Shown here: positions 6,464 through 19,898 of the stretch, piece after piece
How the letters are laid out: every line of letters begins with the position of its first letter
Position numbering within the stretch: the stretch's first letter is position 1
Assembly: GCA_946407895.1 (NCBI GenBank)
Contig: CAMJQA010000005.1
Coordinates: forward strand, 1 to 64,000
Direction: 5' to 3'
Source: an uncultured Prevotellaceae bacterium
GTDB lineage: Bacteria > Bacteroidota > Bacteroidia > Bacteroidales > Bacteroidaceae
DNA length: 64,000 nt
The notes under the pieces: generated by a model
Databases searched by the model: none
Told to the model about the DNA's origin: nothing
What the model saw: the letters and a program-made list of their open reading frames with translations, nothing else
Program-made: the position numbers and the translations under genes

Positions 6464-8497
6464 ATGAAAAAAAGTCGTTTCTTGAACCTATTGCTGATTG
6501 CTTTGTTTTCCACATCGACCTACGGTGCAAAGAAGCCAGTAGAAAAGGATGTTTCCTGTGTAGCAAACAGAGCACCATTAGCAGAAAAGACGTACATGGC
6601 CCTGCCATTGGGCGACATACAAGCCGACGGATGGCTTGCAGAGCAATTGAACCGCATGCGCACAGGGCTGACAGGGCATCTGGATGAGATCTACGCCCCT
6701 GTATGCGGCCCACGCAATTGCTGGCTCGGAGGGGATGGAGACGCCTGGGAGCGGGGCCCATACTGGATTGACGGCCTGCTCCCCCTGGCATACATCCTAG
6801 ATGACGAGGCACTGAAGCAGAAAGTTAAGCCCTGGATAGAATGGACATTAGCCTCGCAGCAGGAAAACGGACAGTTCGGGCCTGTCACTGACCGCAGTCC
6901 CGAAGCCGGATTACAGCGCAGTAATGCTCAGGATTGGTGGCCGCGTATGGTTATGCTCAAGATTATGCAGCAACACTACATGGCTACCGGCGACGAGCGT
7001 GTGATACCCTTTCTGACCAAATATTTCCGCTATCAGTTAAAGGAACTGCCCAATAAGCCCCTCGGACACTGGACATTCTGGGGGCAACAGCGCGGAGGCG
7101 ACAATCTGCAAGTAGTTTATTGGCTCTATAACCTCACGGGCGAACCGTTCCTCCTGGAATTGGGCAAGCTCATTCACAGCCAGACAGAACGATGGACTGA
7201 ACTGTTCCAGGAAGGTGAGATCTTCACACGGCAATTGAGTATGCACTGTGTGAATGTTGGCCAGGGTTTCAAAGAACCTGTGGTATATTATCAGCAGTCA
7301 GGAGAGAAGAAATTCCTGGAGGCTCCGAAAACAGGCTTGCAAAAGATGAGGAACACAATGGCCTTGCCCACCGGATTGTGGGGCGGTGATGAACTGTTGC
7401 GCTTCGGCGAACCGACTGTAGGTTCCGAACTATGTACGGCAACAGAAATGATGTTCTCCCTGGAGAGCATGCTGGAGATAACGGGTGATGTGCAATGGGC
7501 CGACCACCTGGAGCGTATAGCCTATAATGCCCTGCCCACTCAGCATGACGATGACTTTATGAGCCGCCAGTATTTCCAGCAGACCAACCAGGTGTGTGTG
7601 ACCAAGACCTGGCGACAATACTCAACTCCACATGCAGATACCGATGCACTCTTCGGCGTACTGAACGGGTATCCTTGCTGCACATGCAACATGCATCAGG
7701 GGTGGCCCAAGCTGACACTGAACCTATGGTATGGTACAACCGACCGGGGACTGGCCGCACTGGTGTATGGCCCCTCGAAAGTAAAAGGTAGCGTGGCCGA
7801 CGGCATCCCCGTCATAATTCGGGAAGAAACGGCCTATCCATTCGACGAGGAGATACGTTTCACCATAGAATATGCCAAGAAGAAGCAAAAGGAGACCCGC
7901 TTCCCCCTACACCTGCGTATCCCCTCATGGTGCAAAAACGCAGAACTGAGGATAAATGGCAATCCTATGGATATGCAAACACCGGCCGGGCAAATTATTG
8001 TTGTCAACCGCGAATGGAGGCAGGGCGATGTACTGACCTTAAAACTGCCCATGCACATTACATCCAGCAGGTGGTATGGCGGCAGCGCAGTCATAGAGCG
8101 CGGTCCCCTGATATATGCATTGAAGATGCAGGAGAACTGGACGAAGAAGACCTTCGAGCCCTCGCAATCTGCCTATGGCAGTTGGTACTACGAGGTTACG
8201 AGTCCCTCAGCCTGGAACTATGGCCTGCGTCTTCAGCAGATTGAGAAACCCGATCAGTATTTTGAGGTGTCGAGGAACGACAGCCCTGCTGTATATCCAT
8301 GGAATGCAGAGGCCGCACCAGTCACCTTGCGCACGAAGGCCATCCGAATGAAAGACTGGAATATATCGCGAGGCTCCTGTGGCATCATGAACTATTATGT
8401 ACAGCAGGGACGCGACTATGAGGAAGACGAGGCAGAAATAGAGTTGATACCCTACGGCTGTACGGCCCTTCGCATCACCGAATTTCCAGTTAGATAA
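6464..8497 (+). CDS. GH127/DUF1680-family beta-L-arabinofuranosidase-like protein
   Basis: Signal peptide; NGYPCCTCNMHQGWPKLTLNLWYGT, GGSAVIERGPLIYALK. Confidence 0.75.
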   Translation: MKKSRFLNLLLIALFSTSTYGAKKPVEKDVSCVANRAPLAEKTYMALPLGDIQADGWLAEQLNRMRTGLTGHLDEIYAPVCGPRNCWLGGDGDAWERGPYWIDGLLPLAYILDDEALKQKVKPWIEWTLASQQENGQFGPVTDRSPEAGLQRSNAQDWWPRMVMLKIMQQHYMATGDERVIPFLTKYFRYQLKELPNKPLGHWTFWGQQRGGDNLQVVYWLYNLTGEPFLLELGKLIHSQTERWTELFQEGEIFTRQLSMHCVNVGQGFKEPVVYYQQSGEKKFLEAPKTGLQKMRNTMALPTGLWGGDELLRFGEPTVGSELCTATEMMFSLESMLEITGDVQWADHLERIAYNALPTQHDDDFMSRQYFQQTNQVCVTKTWRQYSTPHADTDALFGVLNGYPCCTCNMHQGWPKLTLNLWYGTTDRGLAALVYGPSKVKGSVADGIPVIIREETAYPFDEEIRFTIEYAKKKQKETRFPLHLRIPSWCKNAELRINGNPMDMQTPAGQIIVVNREWRQGDVLTLKLPMHITSSRWYGGSAVIERGPLIYALKMQENWTKKTFEPSQSAYGSWYYEVTSPSAWNYGLRLQQIEKPDQYFEVSRNDSPAVYPWNAEAAPVTLRTKAIRMKDWNISRGSCGIMNYYVQQGRDYEEDEAEIELIPYGCTALRITEFPVR

Positions 8498-8646
8498 AAG
8501 CATCATAATAATGAGCTGTCGCAGCCCGGAAATGTAAATATCGAACAACATTGGCACACTCTTTTGCATTTTCTGTGTTAAGAAATAATTCAACCTTTGC
8601 ACTCGCAAAACAAGAACATGTCCAAGATTTAGAAAATAAAGAAAAG

Positions 8647-9711
8647 ATGAAACACACATTTTTTATCGGTTTGGCACTGACAGGGTTCTTCCTGCTGTCG
8701 TGCAGCCAAGAAAAGAAAGATGCAGAGACGCAGACTCCGGTAGTCCGCATAGATACCGTAGCTGCCATGGGGCAGTATGCCGCCCTGCAGTATCCGGGGC
8801 GTGTAGTTCCGGCCCGCGAGGTGAATGCCTCCTTCAAGGTGGCCGGAACGCTCAGGAAAGTATTTGTCGAAGAGGGTCAGCAGGTACGCGCCGGTCAGGT
8901 GCTGGCCGAGATAGACCCCGTGGATTACCAGGTACAGCTCAGTGCCACCGAGGCTGAATATGCCCAGATAAAAGCCGATGCTGAGCGTGTGATAGGCCTT
9001 TATGAAGAGGGCGGCACTACGGCCAGCAATTACGACAAGGCCCGCTACGGCCTGCAACAGATAGAGGCTAAGCTGCAGAATCACCGCAATCAGTTGGCCT
9101 ATACCCGTATCTACGCCCCCTTCTCGGGTCGCATCCAGACAAAGTGGTTCGAGGGCGGCGAGACCGTCTCGGCCGGTATGCCCATCGTATCTGTACTTTC
9201 CGACGGCCACCTGGAGGTGGAAGTGAACCTGCCCGCCACGTCCTATATGCACCGGCAGGAGTTCAGCAGCTATAGCTGTATGCTCGATGTGATGCCCGAT
9301 ACCCCGCTGGCCCTGCAGCCCATCAGCATCCTGCCCAGGGCCAATGCCAATCAGCTCTATACTATGCGCCTTCGCCTGGGCGAGGGCCTGGAGCGTGTGG
9401 CACCAGGCATGTCGGCCTGGGTTACCATACATACCACCGACTCCCTGTCGGGCCAGATGAGCGTACCCTCTACCGCACTGGTTGAGGAGGGCGGCCACTC
9501 CTATCTCTATCGCTATACCCCCGAGTCGGGCATGGTACGCCGCGTGTCGGTCAGCGTAGAGCGGCTCCATACGGATGGCACGGCTGTCGTGTCTGGTGCC
9601 TTGCATCCAGGCGAACTGGTGGTATCCTCGGGTGCTCACCACCTGAAGGACGGCCTGAAGGTCGATCTTCTGGCACCCATATCGAAAACTAACGTGGGAG
9701 GCTTGCTATGA
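8647..9711 (+). CDS. RND efflux periplasmic adaptor (membrane fusion) lipoprotein
   Basis: Lipobox FFLLSCSQ; VNASFKVAGTLRKVFVEEGQQVRAGQVLAEID; ORF track starts at 8551 but signal peptide begins at 8647. Confidence 0.88.
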   Translation: MKHTFFIGLALTGFFLLSCSQEKKDAETQTPVVRIDTVAAMGQYAALQYPGRVVPAREVNASFKVAGTLRKVFVEEGQQVRAGQVLAEIDPVDYQVQLSATEAEYAQIKADAERVIGLYEEGGTTASNYDKARYGLQQIEAKLQNHRNQLAYTRIYAPFSGRIQTKWFEGGETVSAGMPIVSVLSDGHLEVEVNLPATSYMHRQEFSSYSCMLDVMPDTPLALQPISILPRANANQLYTMRLRLGEGLERVAPGMSAWVTIHTTDSLSGQMSVPSTALVEEGGHSYLYRYTPESGMVRRVSVSVERLHTDGTAVVSGALHPGELVVSSGAHHLKDGLKVDLLAPISKTNVGGLL

Positions 9712-12700
9712 TGGATTTCGGGAAATGGGCTTTCATTAACCGCAAGCTGGTTTATTTCCTGGTGGCTGTCCTGCTCCTGGGCGGTGCGTGGTCCTGCTAC
9801 GAGATGAGCAAGCTGGAGGACCCCGAGGTTAAGGTGAAGCTGGCTATGGTTGTCACGACCTATCCGGGTGCCTCGGCCCATCAGGTAGAGATGGAGGTGA
9901 CCGACGTCCTGGAGAAGCAGATACGCACGATGGGCGATATAGATAATGTAGAGAGCTATTCCTATAACGACCTCTCCATCATCCAGGTAGAGCTGCGCAG
10001 CACTATCAGCAACGACCAGGTGGAACAGTGCTGGGACCGTCTGCGACGCAAGGTGCACGATGCCGAGTCTCATTTGCCCGAGGGGGCCAGCATACCCGTA
10101 ACGAAGGAGGACTTCAGCGCCGTCTATGGCATGTTCTATGCCCTCACCTCGGACGGCCTGTCCGAGCGCGACCTCAGCCGATACGCCGAGCTGGTGAAGC
10201 GCGAGGTGGCTTCCCTGGACGGCGTGGACCGCGTAGAAATATATGGCGAGCAGAAAGACTGCATCCATATCCGCCTGCTGCAGGACAAGATGTCCAGCCT
10301 GGGCGTCCTGCCGGCCGAGGTGCTGGCTACCCTGCGGGGGCAGAACCGTACCTCCTATGCCGGCTATTACGATAATGGCGACCAGCGAATCCGCGTTACT
10401 GTGGCCGACCGTTTCCAGACTGTGGCCGATATCCGGCGCATGCTCGTTCAGGGACACGAGGACGACCAGCTACGCATCAGCGACATTGCCGATGTGGAAA
10501 AGAGCACCGAGACGCCCGTCCGCAATGCCCTTACCTACGATGGCCAGCGCGCTCTTGGCCTCCTGGTGGCAGCCTCTTCGAGTGCCGATATCGTAAAGGT
10601 GGGCAAGGCCGTGAACCGTCGCATCGATGACCTGCGACAGACACGTTTCCCCACCGGGGTGGAGTGCCACAAGGTCTTCTATCAGCCCGACCGCGTCACC
10701 TCCTCACTGGGCACCTTCGTCATAAATCTCATTGAGTCCGTCCTTATCGTGGTTATCGTACTGATGTTCACTATGGGGTTCAAGAGCGGGCTCATCATCG
10801 GAGCCAGTCTGGTGGTCATCGTCTTCGGTTCCTTCCTGGTGCTGGGCAGTGCCGACGGAACCCTGCAGCGCGTCTCGCTGGGCTCCTTCATCCTGGCAAT
10901 GGGCATGCTGGTCGATAATGCAATCGTAATAATAGACGGCATACTGGTGGACCTGAAGAGCGGCAAGTCGCGCATGGAAGCCATGACCTCCATTGGACGC
11001 CGCACGGCCATGCCCCTTCTGGGAGCTACGGTCATCGCCATTCTCTCCTTCCTGCCCATCTTCATGTCGCCCGATACGGCAGGCATCTATGTGCGCGACC
11101 TCTTCATCGTACTGGCTGTCAGCCTGCTGCTGAGCTGGGTGCTGGCGCTTACGCATGTCCCCCTGATGGCCGACCGTCTGCTGAAGGGCGAGAAGAAGAC
11201 ATCGGAAGACAGCAGACAGCAGGGCGCAGAGAATCTCTATCAGGGCCGCACCTACGAACTTCTGGGCCGTCTGCTGCGTTTATGCCTTGGGCATCGGCTC
11301 ACCGTCACGGCAGTCATGCTGGGTCTGCTGGCACTCTCGCTCTTGGGCTATCCCTATATGCGCCAGGGCTTCTTCCCCGATATGGTCTATGACCAGTGCT
11401 ATATGGAGTACAAGTTGCCCGAGGGAACCAATAGCACTCGCGTACAGAAAGACCTGGACAGTATCCAGGCCTACCTGCTTACACGTCCCGAGGTGACACA
11501 CATCACAGCCTCCATAGGCGGTACGCCAGGCCGCTACAACCTGGTGCGCACCGTGCCCCTGCCCTCCCTTTCCTACGGCGAACTCATCATCGACTTCAAG
11601 TCTCCCAAGGCACTCGAGGAGAATATCTCGGAGATTCAGTCCTACCTGACGCGTCATTATCCCGATGCCTATGTGAAGGTGAAGAAGTATAACCTGATGT
11701 TCAAGAAGTACCCCATCGAACTGCAGTTCCAGGGGCCCGATCCTGCCGTCCTGCATGCCCTGACGGACAGCGCCATGCAGATTATGAAGCAGAGCGGTCT
11801 GGTACATCTCGTCACTACCGACTGGGAACCTCGGGTGCCTGTGCTCACCGTCGATTACGACCAGGCCTCGGCCCGTACCATCGGGCTGAGCCGCCACGAC
11901 CTGAGCCTCTCCCTCATGACGGCCGGGGGCGGTATTCCCGTGGGTAACTTCTACGAGGGTATCTATCCAAATAATATCTATGTGAAGTGCGTGAACGAGA
12001 AGGGACAGCCCATCGAAAACCTCCAGGACATGCAGGTCTTCTCCATGATGCCCTCGCTGATGGGCCTGGCCAACAAGGATAACCTTGTCCGTCTGAAGAC
12101 GGGCACCCTCACCCGGGAGCAGCTGATGGCCGACCTGCTGGGGACCACCCCCTTGCGCCAGGTGAGCCGCAATATCTCCGTGGAGTGGGAGGATCCTGTA
12201 GTTCCACGCTATAACGGTCAGCGCATGCAGCGGGCACAGTGCTCGCCCCGCGACGGCTACGAGACAGAGAAGACGCGTGCAGCCCTGGCCCGCCAGATAG
12301 AGCAGAAGATTAAGCTGCCCGCCGGATACACCATGAAGTGGCAGGGCGAGAAGGCAGCCAGCGACCGCAGCATGAAGTACCTCTTTGCCAACTTCCCGAT
12401 GGCTATCATCCTCATCATAGCCATCCTCATCATGCTCTTCCGCGACTACCGCAAGCCGCTCATCATTTTCTGCTGCATACCCATGCTTTTCGTGGGTGTC
12501 GTCTCCACGGTACTGCTCACGGGCAAGACCTTCACCTTCGTAGCTATTGTGGGTGCCCTGGGCCTGATAGGTATGATCGTCAAGAACGGCATCGTGCTCA
12601 TGGACGAGATTACCCTGCAACTGGAGAGCGGCGTGGAGCCGATAACGGCCCTCGTACAGAGCAGCCAGAGTCGCCTCCGCCCGGTCATGATGGCTTCGCT

Positions 12701-12872
12701 CACTACCGTACTGGGCATGATACCCCTCCTGGGCGATGCCATGTTTGGCAGTATGGCCGTAACCATTATGGGCGGCCTCCTGTTCGGAACGCTCATTACC
12801 CTGCTGTTCATTCCTGTGCTCTACGCTATGTTCTTCGGAATTAAGAACCAGAAGTCTGCAGATGAAAAGTAA
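9708..12872 (+). CDS. RND efflux transporter permease (AcrB/MMPL type)
   Basis: 1054 aa; DPEVKVKLAMVVTTYPGASAHQVE..., GMLVDNAIVIIDGI, ALGLIGMIVKNGIVLMDEI. Confidence 0.92.
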   Translation: MMDFGKWAFINRKLVYFLVAVLLLGGAWSCYEMSKLEDPEVKVKLAMVVTTYPGASAHQVEMEVTDVLEKQIRTMGDIDNVESYSYNDLSIIQVELRSTISNDQVEQCWDRLRRKVHDAESHLPEGASIPVTKEDFSAVYGMFYALTSDGLSERDLSRYAELVKREVASLDGVDRVEIYGEQKDCIHIRLLQDKMSSLGVLPAEVLATLRGQNRTSYAGYYDNGDQRIRVTVADRFQTVADIRRMLVQGHEDDQLRISDIADVEKSTETPVRNALTYDGQRALGLLVAASSSADIVKVGKAVNRRIDDLRQTRFPTGVECHKVFYQPDRVTSSLGTFVINLIESVLIVVIVLMFTMGFKSGLIIGASLVVIVFGSFLVLGSADGTLQRVSLGSFILAMGMLVDNAIVIIDGILVDLKSGKSRMEAMTSIGRRTAMPLLGATVIAILSFLPIFMSPDTAGIYVRDLFIVLAVSLLLSWVLALTHVPLMADRLLKGEKKTSEDSRQQGAENLYQGRTYELLGRLLRLCLGHRLTVTAVMLGLLALSLLGYPYMRQGFFPDMVYDQCYMEYKLPEGTNSTRVQKDLDSIQAYLLTRPEVTHITASIGGTPGRYNLVRTVPLPSLSYGELIIDFKSPKALEENISEIQSYLTRHYPDAYVKVKKYNLMFKKYPIELQFQGPDPAVLHALTDSAMQIMKQSGLVHLVTTDWEPRVPVLTVDYDQASARTIGLSRHDLSLSLMTAGGGIPVGNFYEGIYPNNIYVKCVNEKGQPIENLQDMQVFSMMPSLMGLANKDNLVRLKTGTLTREQLMADLLGTTPLRQVSRNISVEWEDPVVPRYNGQRMQRAQCSPRDGYETEKTRAALARQIEQKIKLPAGYTMKWQGEKAASDRSMKYLFANFPMAIILIIAILIMLFRDYRKPLIIFCCIPMLFVGVVSTVLLTGKTFTFVAIVGALGLIGMIVKNGIVLMDEITLQLESGVEPITALVQSSQSRLRPVMMASLTTVLGMIPLLGDAMFGSMAVTIMGGLLFGTLITLLFIPVLYAMFFGIKNQKSADEK

Positions 12873-12886
12873 AGAACTGAAGAAAG

Positions 12887-14245
12887 ATGAAACGATATAT
12901 ATATATTATAATAATGTGTCTCGCCCTGCCCCTTTGCCAGGCCCAGGCACAGCCGCTTAGCATAGAACAGTGCCGCCAGATGGCACTGAAGTTCAACAAG
13001 GAGCGCCAGTCGGCCACTCTGAGCACCGAGGCTGCCCGCTTCACCATGAAGAGCTATTATGCCCAGTTCTTCCCCAATCTCTCGCTGGCCGGCTTTGGTA
13101 TTTACGATACGGGCGACGGCGGGCTGAATGTGGAGGGGGGCATGCTTCCCGTGGGCTCTATGGCTACGGGCAGTTTTGTGCCTTCCGGCAGTTTTGCCTA
13201 TTTCCCTGGGCTCAATCTGGACTACAAGCTGGGCTTCATCTACTCGGGCAGCGTGGTCCTGAAGCAACCGCTCTATATGGGAGGCCGTATCCAGGCTGCC
13301 TATAGGATGTCGCGTATGGCCGTCGATCTATACCGTCAGGGTGAGCGGATGACCGAAGCCGAGGTCATACAGCGGGCCGATGAGGCATACGCACGAGTCG
13401 TGAATGCACGCGAGCTACAGCAGGTGGCCGAGAAGTACCAGGCCCTGTTGCTTGAGCTGGACAAGAACGTGGAGAGTGCCGTCCGCCACGGGCTTAAGAT
13501 GGAGAACGACCGCATGAAGGTGCAGGTAAAGCTGAACGAGGTAGAGCTGCAGCTACGCCGTGCCCAGAATGGTGTGCGGCTGGCTACAATGAACCTCTGC
13601 CACGCTACGGGCCAGCCCCTCGGCACCCCCCTGGAGGTAAGCTCCCAGTACCCGGCTGTGGATGATGCCCAGGCCATTCAGACCGATGATGTGAGCGCCC
13701 GGCCGGAGATAGCCATGCTGGACTATCAGCGGCAGATAGCCGGTCAGCAAGTGCGACTGGCACGCAGCGAGATGTTGCCCCAGCTGGCCCTGTTGGCCAA
13801 GTACGGATATACGCATGGAGTGGAGTTCAACGGCCGTAGCCTCCTCGACGGATGGAACTTTGCCGGCGGGGTAACCCTTAGTATCCCCCTCTACCACTTC
13901 GGCGAGCATTCGAACAAGGTTAAGGCCGCCAAGACCAGGCTGCAACAGTCCGAGGTAGAACTCGAGAATAAGCGGGAACTGATGCTGCTGGAACTGAACC
14001 GTGCGGCTAATAACCTGGACGAGGCCCGCCTGGAGGTGTCTCTGGCCGAGAAAACACTTGCTCAGGCCGAGAACAGCATGAAACTGAGCCGTCAGCAATA
14101 CGATGCCGGGCTGGAACCCCTGAGCGACTACCTCGAGTCGCAGGCTACCTGGCAGCAGGCATACGAGTCGCTGGTGAATGCGCATTTCCAGCGCTATCTC
14201 TCTTCGGTGGCCTACCTCAGGTCTGCCGGCATGCTGGTTCAGTGA
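12887..14245 (+). CDS. TolC-family outer membrane efflux protein
   Basis: Signal peptide; LSIEQCRQMALKFNKE and heptad repeats; operon position after RND genes. Confidence 0.88.
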   Translation: MKRYIYIIIMCLALPLCQAQAQPLSIEQCRQMALKFNKERQSATLSTEAARFTMKSYYAQFFPNLSLAGFGIYDTGDGGLNVEGGMLPVGSMATGSFVPSGSFAYFPGLNLDYKLGFIYSGSVVLKQPLYMGGRIQAAYRMSRMAVDLYRQGERMTEAEVIQRADEAYARVVNARELQQVAEKYQALLLELDKNVESAVRHGLKMENDRMKVQVKLNEVELQLRRAQNGVRLATMNLCHATGQPLGTPLEVSSQYPAVDDAQAIQTDDVSARPEIAMLDYQRQIAGQQVRLARSEMLPQLALLAKYGYTHGVEFNGRSLLDGWNFAGGVTLSIPLYHFGEHSNKVKAAKTRLQQSEVELENKRELMLLELNRAANNLDEARLEVSLAEKTLAQAENSMKLSRQQYDAGLEPLSDYLESQATWQQAYESLVNAHFQRYLSSVAYLRSAGMLVQ

Positions 14246-18169: not shown

Positions 18170-18378
18170 GTAATCATAAATGACAGGCTGAATCTCTATG
18201 TGGCCGATGAGTTTTATAAGAGAAAAAAGGCTAGTCGGTCTTTCACTGCCTCATGCACTTGATTCCTCACCACAGGGGCAATGCGCCAAACCCCAAGGGC
18301 TGTGTTCTCGGAGCGATACCTAGCAAGCAGGAATATTAAGCCATGCAAATTATTGAGACTAAAGGCAATCAAAATTTG

Positions 18379-19461
18379 ATGAATAGAGAAAAAACACTAT
18401 TTCTCTGTTCCAAGATGACTCCGATAGGGTTATATGACTATGTGTTCAAATGGACAGACAGCCTTACGGAGAGGGATTGTATTGCCTGCTTCAATTCTAC
18501 CGAAATGGAATCGGAGGTATTGAAGGCTCTGCTCGTTGCAAAAGTTCCTACCATCTTGTTCGTCATGAACCGCTTCACTGACGTAAATAACATTCAGATA
18601 GAGCGGGCGCTAAAAGAAAACAGAATGCTCATCGTAATCTTGAGGCGCAACGAGCCAAGAGGAAGAGGAGCTACGCCCAGGCTGAGGAATGAATATGTGT
18701 TGTCACTTTGCCCGCATGTCGTTTGTGGTTATATCAACAAGAATGGCAGCGTGTTCCCCCTGCTGGCAGGACGAAGAAACGTTGTAAATCTAATTGACGA
18801 AAACGCATATTTGGTGGCAGCAGAACCATTTCCAAGTCATGAACGATGGACAGTGACACAGGACAAGATGCTGCTTCGGATGTTTTATAATGACATGGGA
18901 ATCCATGCCATCCATAAGCGGTTGCAAAGGACATACGCTGCTGTGCAGTCACGCATCCATTCCATTACGCAACCAGAAGAGTTATTGAAAGGACGAGAGT
19001 TTGAGGATTACGTGCTCAGCCTGTTTAACCTTCAGGAAAGTGATGAACTCATTCTGCAAGAATGGCAGGGCGACAAATCGTATGGAATGATTCAGCCAGA
19101 AAACAATAGCAATCCCGACTTCGTCTTCCGATACAGACAAGACGAATTTGCCGTAGAATGTAAGTGGCGAGGGAAACTAAGTCAAGATTGGGTTAACGAC
19201 TTGTTCCCGCCAAGAAGGATTGATAATTATAAGCATTTCTCCCAAATCCGGCATATGCCAGTAACCGTCATCCTTGGCGTAGGCGGAGAGCCATGCAACC
19301 CGGAATTTCTTTACAAAATTCCTTTAGAGGGAATCATTCCTATCACCTTAGGAAATCAATCAATAGTTGATTATCTATACCCTTTATCGTCGTTCGACAT
19401 TTCTACGTTCTTACAACAAAGTGAGAAGCACAAGGAGAGAGCCTATACACATAATGAATGA
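18379..19461 (+). CDS. Uncharacterised protein: SLOG/DprA-like N-terminal region + Myb/SANT-like HTH + Mrr-like PD-(D/E)XK nuclease domain
   Basis: RNEYVLSLCPHVVCGYINKNGSVFPLLAGRRN resembles DprA/SLOG; RWTVTQDKMLLRMFYNDMGIHAIHKRLQRTYAAVQSRIHSI; GREFEDYVLSLFN...NPDFVFRYRQDEFAVECKWR (D-x13-ExK). Start could also be 18343. Confidence 0.6.
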   Translation: MNREKTLFLCSKMTPIGLYDYVFKWTDSLTERDCIACFNSTEMESEVLKALLVAKVPTILFVMNRFTDVNNIQIERALKENRMLIVILRRNEPRGRGATPRLRNEYVLSLCPHVVCGYINKNGSVFPLLAGRRNVVNLIDENAYLVAAEPFPSHERWTVTQDKMLLRMFYNDMGIHAIHKRLQRTYAAVQSRIHSITQPEELLKGREFEDYVLSLFNLQESDELILQEWQGDKSYGMIQPENNSNPDFVFRYRQDEFAVECKWRGKLSQDWVNDLFPPRRIDNYKHFSQIRHMPVTVILGVGGEPCNPEFLYKIPLEGIIPITLGNQSIVDYLYPLSSFDISTFLQQSEKHKERAYTHNE

Positions 19462-19639
19462 GAAGCGCAAGCAATTTTCTAATGCCTATAAGGCATGGAG
19501 CACAGAAGACGACAAACTACTTGTCACTCTACATCATGAAAACAAAAGCATAAAAGAACTTATGACCATATTTAAGCGTAATGAGGGTGCCATATATTCA
19601 AGAATTCGGAAACTTACAAGCAAGGCCAATAGAGAATAA
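19454..19639 (+). CDS. Small (61 aa) Myb/SANT-like HTH protein
   Basis: AWSTEDDKLLVTLHHENKSIKELMTIFKRNEGAIYSRIRKL aligns with the HTH of the preceding protein; start overlaps the preceding stop by 8 bp. Confidence 0.6.
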   Translation: MNEKRKQFSNAYKAWSTEDDKLLVTLHHENKSIKELMTIFKRNEGAIYSRIRKLTSKANRE

Positions 19640-19833: not shown

Positions 19834-19898
19834 ATCGAACAACAAACGGACAACAATCGAACAACAAACGGACAACAATCGAACAACAAACGGACAAC
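19834..19898. repeat. Three tandem copies of a 22-bp unit ATCGAACAACAAACGGACAACA
   Basis: Copies at 19834, 19856 and 19878 (last base differs); preceded by inverted TGTTGTTCG (19818-19826). Confidence 0.95.

Follow-up and report, generated by a model that had tools for sequence, protein, structure and literature searches.

Two overlapping open reading frames in the window, which is the entire 64,000-nucleotide stretch of DNA analysed here, are the two parts of one accessory gene, which a tandem duplication of 4 bases has split here, a conclusion we hold with very high confidence. The intact protein is predicted to be a single chain carrying a DprA/SLOG-like domain, a Myb-like helix-turn-helix (HTH), an Hjc/RecU-like PD-(D/E)XK nuclease and, optionally, a second HTH. 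Overall, the locus is probably a split accessory gene for a single-chain nuclease under the control of a DprA-type sensor, acting in stand-alone or second-line defence. The relevant features are the following.

18343 to 19461, forward strand: ORF1, 372 amino acids, with a SLOG/DprA-like domain, HTH1 and a PD-(D/E)XK nuclease domain; a truncated form of a protein of about 430 amino acids.
18343 to 18792, forward strand: predicted SLOG/DprA-like Rossmann domain, residues 1-150, with the motifs GN..LL, FLCS, E-x-EVLKALL and RN.
18838 to 18972, forward strand: HTH1, residues 166-210, a tri-helical Myb-like/sigma-r4-like helix-turn-helix.
18976 to 19377, forward strand: predicted PD-(D/E)XK nuclease domain, residues 212-345.
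19454 to 19461, forward strand: 4-base tandem duplication (ATGA ATGA), identified in DNA alignments with intact homologues.
19454 to 19639, forward strand: ORF2, 61 amino acids, comprising HTH2, normally the C-terminal domain of the ORF1 protein and detached in the window.

One gene split by a 4-base duplication

ORF1, whose start at position 18343 is consistent with all homologues, overlaps ORF2 at ATGAATGA. The first-pass annotation had described two overlapping frames with particular motifs, all of which are found in the sequence, and had read them as a two-gene module. This second part of the description fails, since at 12 homologous loci a single open frame runs through ORF1 and on into ORF2, which forms its C-terminus. 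When the window is aligned at the DNA level with five intact homologues, a single 4-base insertion interrupts an otherwise collinear and continuous frame, and the same is true of the alignment with locus L022. This ATGA duplication (19454-19461) is the sole frame-changing difference at the junction. It shifts the frame and so creates the stop codon of ORF1 (TGA, 19459-19461), while the tail is left with an ATG at 19454. Thus, the one-gene reading follows from the fused tail of 12 loci and from the insertion that the window carries. The window copy retains an intact nuclease half, with the tail HTH separated from it; the overlapping ATG could allow translation of this tail by coupling, or the tail could be left untranslated.

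Searches of related genomes recovered approximately 32 loci with the SLOG-HTH-nuclease architecture, all of them within the order (copies judged identical by coordinates and sequence are merged in these counts). The tail is fused in the same frame at 12 loci (L021/L002, L022/L070, L003, L004, L005, L007, L026, L075, L076, L077, L105 and L107), where the intact product is a single protein of about 420-465 amino acids. It is absent, with no separate copy, from about 13 others (L008, L009, L011, L024, L025, L027, L029, L092, L103, L104, L108, L109 and L110). A tail in a frame of its own, with a usable ATG, is seen in only two of the loci examined, the window and one relative (L023). The linker of L023 is broken by an in-frame TAG, that of L106 by a single GAA to TAA change and that of L079 by an indel beside a C6 run. 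Neither of the latter two tails has its own start codon, and the L106 tail is almost identical to that of L107. The frame is broken in the nuclease region in L006 and L010, and L111/L113 carry frame breaks too. Four of the six breaks in HTH2-bearing copies lie inside the same linker of about 36 residues in the 431-residue protein (binomial P 6e-4, assuming that breaks are uniform along the 431 residues). The simplest reading of these linker breaks is that loss of the tail is tolerated.

A two-gene defence or toxin-antitoxin module, in which the 61-amino-acid HTH protein represses or neutralises the nuclease, would suit the overlapping ATGA arrangement, which is typical of coupled genes, and the purifying selection still acting on ORF2. 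However, HTH2 is part of the same chain at 12 loci, and the natural homologues without HTH2 already disfavour such a module. The two-gene layout is conserved at no other locus, and two of the four linker-split copies have tails without a start codon. The suggestion of the first-pass annotation that the small HTH partner is a repressor or antidote fares no better: nuclease and HTH normally form one chain, and because about 13 homologues have no tail, HTH2 is not an obligate antidote or repressor. We regard a two-gene module as very unlikely. An apparent toxin-antitoxin-like operon can arise from one frameshift, which matters for efforts to discover defence systems on the basis of gene pairs.

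The source genome is a draft of 121 contigs, so a possible alternative to a genuine break is that positions 19454-19461 were misassembled. Many of the homologous loci likewise come from draft assemblies, in which single frame breaks may be errors. In our judgement, however, a 4-base tandem duplication is an unusual kind of assembly error. Programmed frameshifting and phase variation were also weighed for the junction, and rejected. The repeat consists of two units only, and other copies are broken by unlike events (TAG, TAA and a C6 indel), which gives no support to a shared slippage mechanism.

The region of ORF1 and ORF2 has a G+C content of 0.37-0.48, compared with 0.57-0.66 in wzc, in agreement with the earlier remark that it is more AT-rich than this neighbouring gene. 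The 174 bp upstream have no second copy elsewhere in the genome. Beyond the 3' end of the split gene, a 22-bp sequence (ATCGAACAACAAACGGACAACA) is repeated in tandem in three perfect copies (19834-19898).

Predicted sensor and nuclease domains

No meaningful match to ORF1, and none of DprA type, was found in Pfam, NCBIfam or PADLOC. As judged from standalone relatives and the modelled fold, and not from a direct profile match, the N-terminal domain is related to DprA. Standalone SLOG relatives of about 150 amino acids match the Pfam DprA family (PF02481) with an E value of 2.7e-7, above the gathering score, and also match PADLOC PsyrA (6.7e-12) and ShosA (1.3e-4). A profile gives a weak alignment to S. 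pneumoniae DprA (E 0.013) that includes the RN motif. AF2 models of the L022 protein and of window ORF1 have an alternating alpha/beta fold at the N-terminus, for which the best PDB match by Foldseek is ShosA (8zva; E 2.2e-4 and 7.0e-4), with HpDprA at 6.9e-4. ShosA, DprA, Hjc and RecU are all among the first PDB matches of these models. Confidence in the models is middling (mean pLDDT 71 for L022 and 70 for window ORF1; pTM 0.43-0.47), the alignments behind them are shallow at 8-9 sequences, and the per-query TM-scores are low, as each alignment covers a single domain. DprA/Smf proteins share the order of Rossmann elements and the RN motif, with homology traced through the standalone relatives, whereas the protein described here has no Pfam match of its own and has nuclease and HTH domains after its Rossmann domain.

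The helices of HTH1 are predicted by AF2 at residues 171-182, 187-194 and 198-208, and homologues give weak matches to Pfam Sigma70_r4. In the adjoining nuclease domain, the FE, DK, PD and ECKWR motifs are unchanged over nine divergent members, with invariant residues F-E221, D244-K245, P-D259 and E272-x-K274. Foldseek matches the modelled domain to Hjc and RecU, and there is a weak match to Pfam PDDEXK_11. With a conserved acidic residue and ExK on the common core fold of the models, the domain is a PD-(D/E)XK member and a predicted nuclease. Archaeal Hjc, RecU resolvases and PDDEXK_11 share this fold and these residues, whereas the nuclease here is embedded between two HTH domains and its profile has no significant sequence match in the PDB. 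The SLOG/DprA-like, HTH and PD-(D/E)XK domains named by the first-pass annotation are thus borne out by the standalone relatives, the models and the invariant residues. Structure prediction for ORF1 and L022, which it had proposed as a check, gives a Rossmann-type SLOG-like fold and an intact PD-(D/E)XK core.

Given the frame breaks in L006, L010, L023, L079, L106 and L111/L113, the window copy could be a dying, functionless pseudogene, one of several degraded copies. We consider this unlikely. ORF1 retains every catalytic residue and stops at the domain boundary where natural homologues without a tail also end, and dN/dS is low throughout.

The same PD-(D/E)XK domain is found in uncharacterised, probably membrane-anchored proteins of about 220-290 amino acids, one of them 375 (L030-L036, L038, L040, L041, L043, L093 and L094). 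Such proteins of Bacteroidota (e.g. L031, L032 and L094) carry a nuclease domain of the same family, but an N-terminal hydrophobic segment, transmembrane by eye, takes the place of SLOG and HTH. In L033 and L035, a second, shorter paralogue lies directly downstream.

The detached HTH tail

HTH2 is predicted to be tri-helical, like HTH1. The only matches to its profile are generic HTH and Myb domains, and no dedicated Pfam family was found. In the window, HTH2 has a dN/dS of 0.09-0.16, similar to that of the body of the protein, and its window-specific changes comprise one nonsynonymous and two synonymous substitutions, so purifying selection is still visible. Because the detached tail keeps this low dN/dS, the break must have happened recently unless the tail continues to be used.

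The selection on HTH2 would suit a functional fission in which termination-reinitiation at ATGAATGA yields both pieces, which then combine into a two-subunit enzyme. The clustering of four of six breaks in one linker points the same way, in that breaks there are at least tolerated. However, a dispensable tail with recent breaks would give this pattern too, and neither the L106 nor the L079 tail has a start codon. We consider functional fission distinctly unlikely.

In an order-wide profile search, each module was also found alone: the SLOG domain by itself, the nuclease domain following a hydrophobic segment that is probably transmembrane (L030-L036 and L094), and the HTH tail in other proteins. 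The tail forms the end of UvrD-type helicases of two sizes (L055 and L135-L137, labelled by Pfam for L055 and by eye for L135-L137) and of PUR/DUF3276 proteins (L045 and L050), and is present in a 93-amino-acid protein (L052). These examples, along with L057, outline a portable C-terminal HTH module in Bacteroidota, found also in small standalone proteins, with the signature W-x(4)-D ... F-x-R-x-x-G-x-I-x-x-R.

Distribution, neighbours and possible function

Full-length copies are distributed patchily, occurring in 19 of 139 genomes of the genus (14%) and in 7 of the 30 sampled genera of the family. No relative was detected in viral contigs by a single-protein scan, nor in phage or plasmid collections. 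Defence neighbours are clear for four homologues. PARIS lies 200 bp downstream of L024 (AriA, E 1.5e-111; AriB, 2.2e-116) and is followed by type II methyltransferases, a type I restriction-modification system is 1.2 kb downstream of L021, PD-T4-4 is upstream of L026, and HEC-01A/B is about 100 bp downstream of L060. The neighbours are suggestive for L062, which has an AAA-type pair downstream, and for L022. Some relatives beside anti-virus defence genes occur in gut and rumen bacteria. At E<=1e-20, PADLOC assigns 79 families to 135 neighbour proteins versus 21 to 136 control proteins from random regions, a coarse control that counts profile families and not systems. Besides candidate (PDC) families, the control list contains nothing more than matches such as MzaA, CARF-RtcR, mad3 and capP, and PARIS, HEC-01, PD-T4-4 and type I restriction-modification are absent from it.

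Most homologues, including that of the window, have ordinary chromosomal or housekeeping neighbours. The first-pass annotation had envisaged a compact defence or DNA-processing system and had proposed to ask whether homologues lie in defence islands. The patchy distribution and the defence neighbours of a minority of homologues agree with a defence system, but the window copy has no such neighbours. The chromosomal site is the same between related genomes (L059/L061, L060/L062 and L087/L088) and different between lineages. L060 and L062 occupy one site (about 7400-13300), in which the SLOG-nuclease gene lies between a reductase gene and a DUF4298-like gene, accompanied by a different AAA-ATPase gene pair in each genome, HEC-01 in one of them; this shared site looks like a defence hot spot.

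The resemblance of the nuclease to junction resolvases, Hjc and RecU being its closest folds, makes a role in chromosomal DNA repair, recombination or transformation a real alternative, in which a DprA-like protein would feed a Holliday-junction-type nuclease. DprA acts in transformation, and the many copies with housekeeping neighbours at sites kept between related genomes would also fit. However, the gene is present in only 14% of the genomes of the genus, sites differ between lineages, and several copies adjoin dedicated defence systems. We consider such a role rather unlikely.

For the defence reading that we prefer, it is quite likely that the nuclease is controlled by the DprA-like sensor, whereas we give an anti-phage role slightly less than an even chance. 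By analogy with DprA-like and other SLOG proteins, the SLOG domain would bind abnormal single-stranded DNA or a nucleotide signal. The HTH domain or domains might keep the protein on duplex DNA, and the nuclease, probably a dimer like Hjc and RecU, could then cut invading or branched DNA. The protein would act as a stand-alone defence or as a second-line nuclease that travels in defence hot spots. More speculatively, the protein could be a stand-alone immune nuclease, a single chain whose DprA-type sensor exerts direct control over a Holliday-junction-like nuclease and whose C-terminal HTH tail is swappable, being drawn from a common DNA-targeting module of Bacteroidota that also serves UvrD-type helicases and PUR proteins.

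DprA-like proteins have precedents in defence. One such protein, acting with a phosphoribosyltransferase, defends E. coli against T7 and lambda, and DprA homologues are the antitoxins of ShosTA, SyrTA and RqlHI (PMC9122126). ShosA and PsyrA share the DprA-like SLOG domain, ShosA (8zva) being the best PDB fold match, and ShosTA and PsyrTA are likewise defence-associated. However, the partner of ShosA or PsyrA is a toxin encoded by a gene of its own, whereas the protein described here has its nuclease effector fused in cis. No adjacent ShosT phosphoribosyltransferase or PsyrT toxin gene was seen among the frames read by eye in the window and homologues or among the top families listed in the pooled PADLOC neighbour scan. 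Thoeris ThsA (SIR2-SLOG) follows the same design of a SLOG sensor and effector in a single chain (PMC11204291). Its effector is an NADase (SIR2) rather than a nuclease, its SLOG domain belongs to a different branch, and no TIR partner gene was seen at the SLOG-nuclease loci. The pairing of a SLOG sensor with an effector is a known theme, of which this protein is a new variant, and the libraries used contain no Pfam, NCBIfam or PADLOC model for it. If it proves active, the protein would link a DprA-like sensor in cis to an effector that cuts DNA, a compact arrangement that could be tested with a single gene, and would broaden the recently recognised defensive role of DprA-like proteins.

Two genomes (L058 and L066) have homologues located at the gltD 3' end, in opposite orientation. 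A gene row of SLOG, Xre-type HTH and SLOG with a long C-terminal region is conserved in two genomes (L044:350-2622 and L046:874-3159), and its last protein resembles the PADLOC candidate PDC-M16B.
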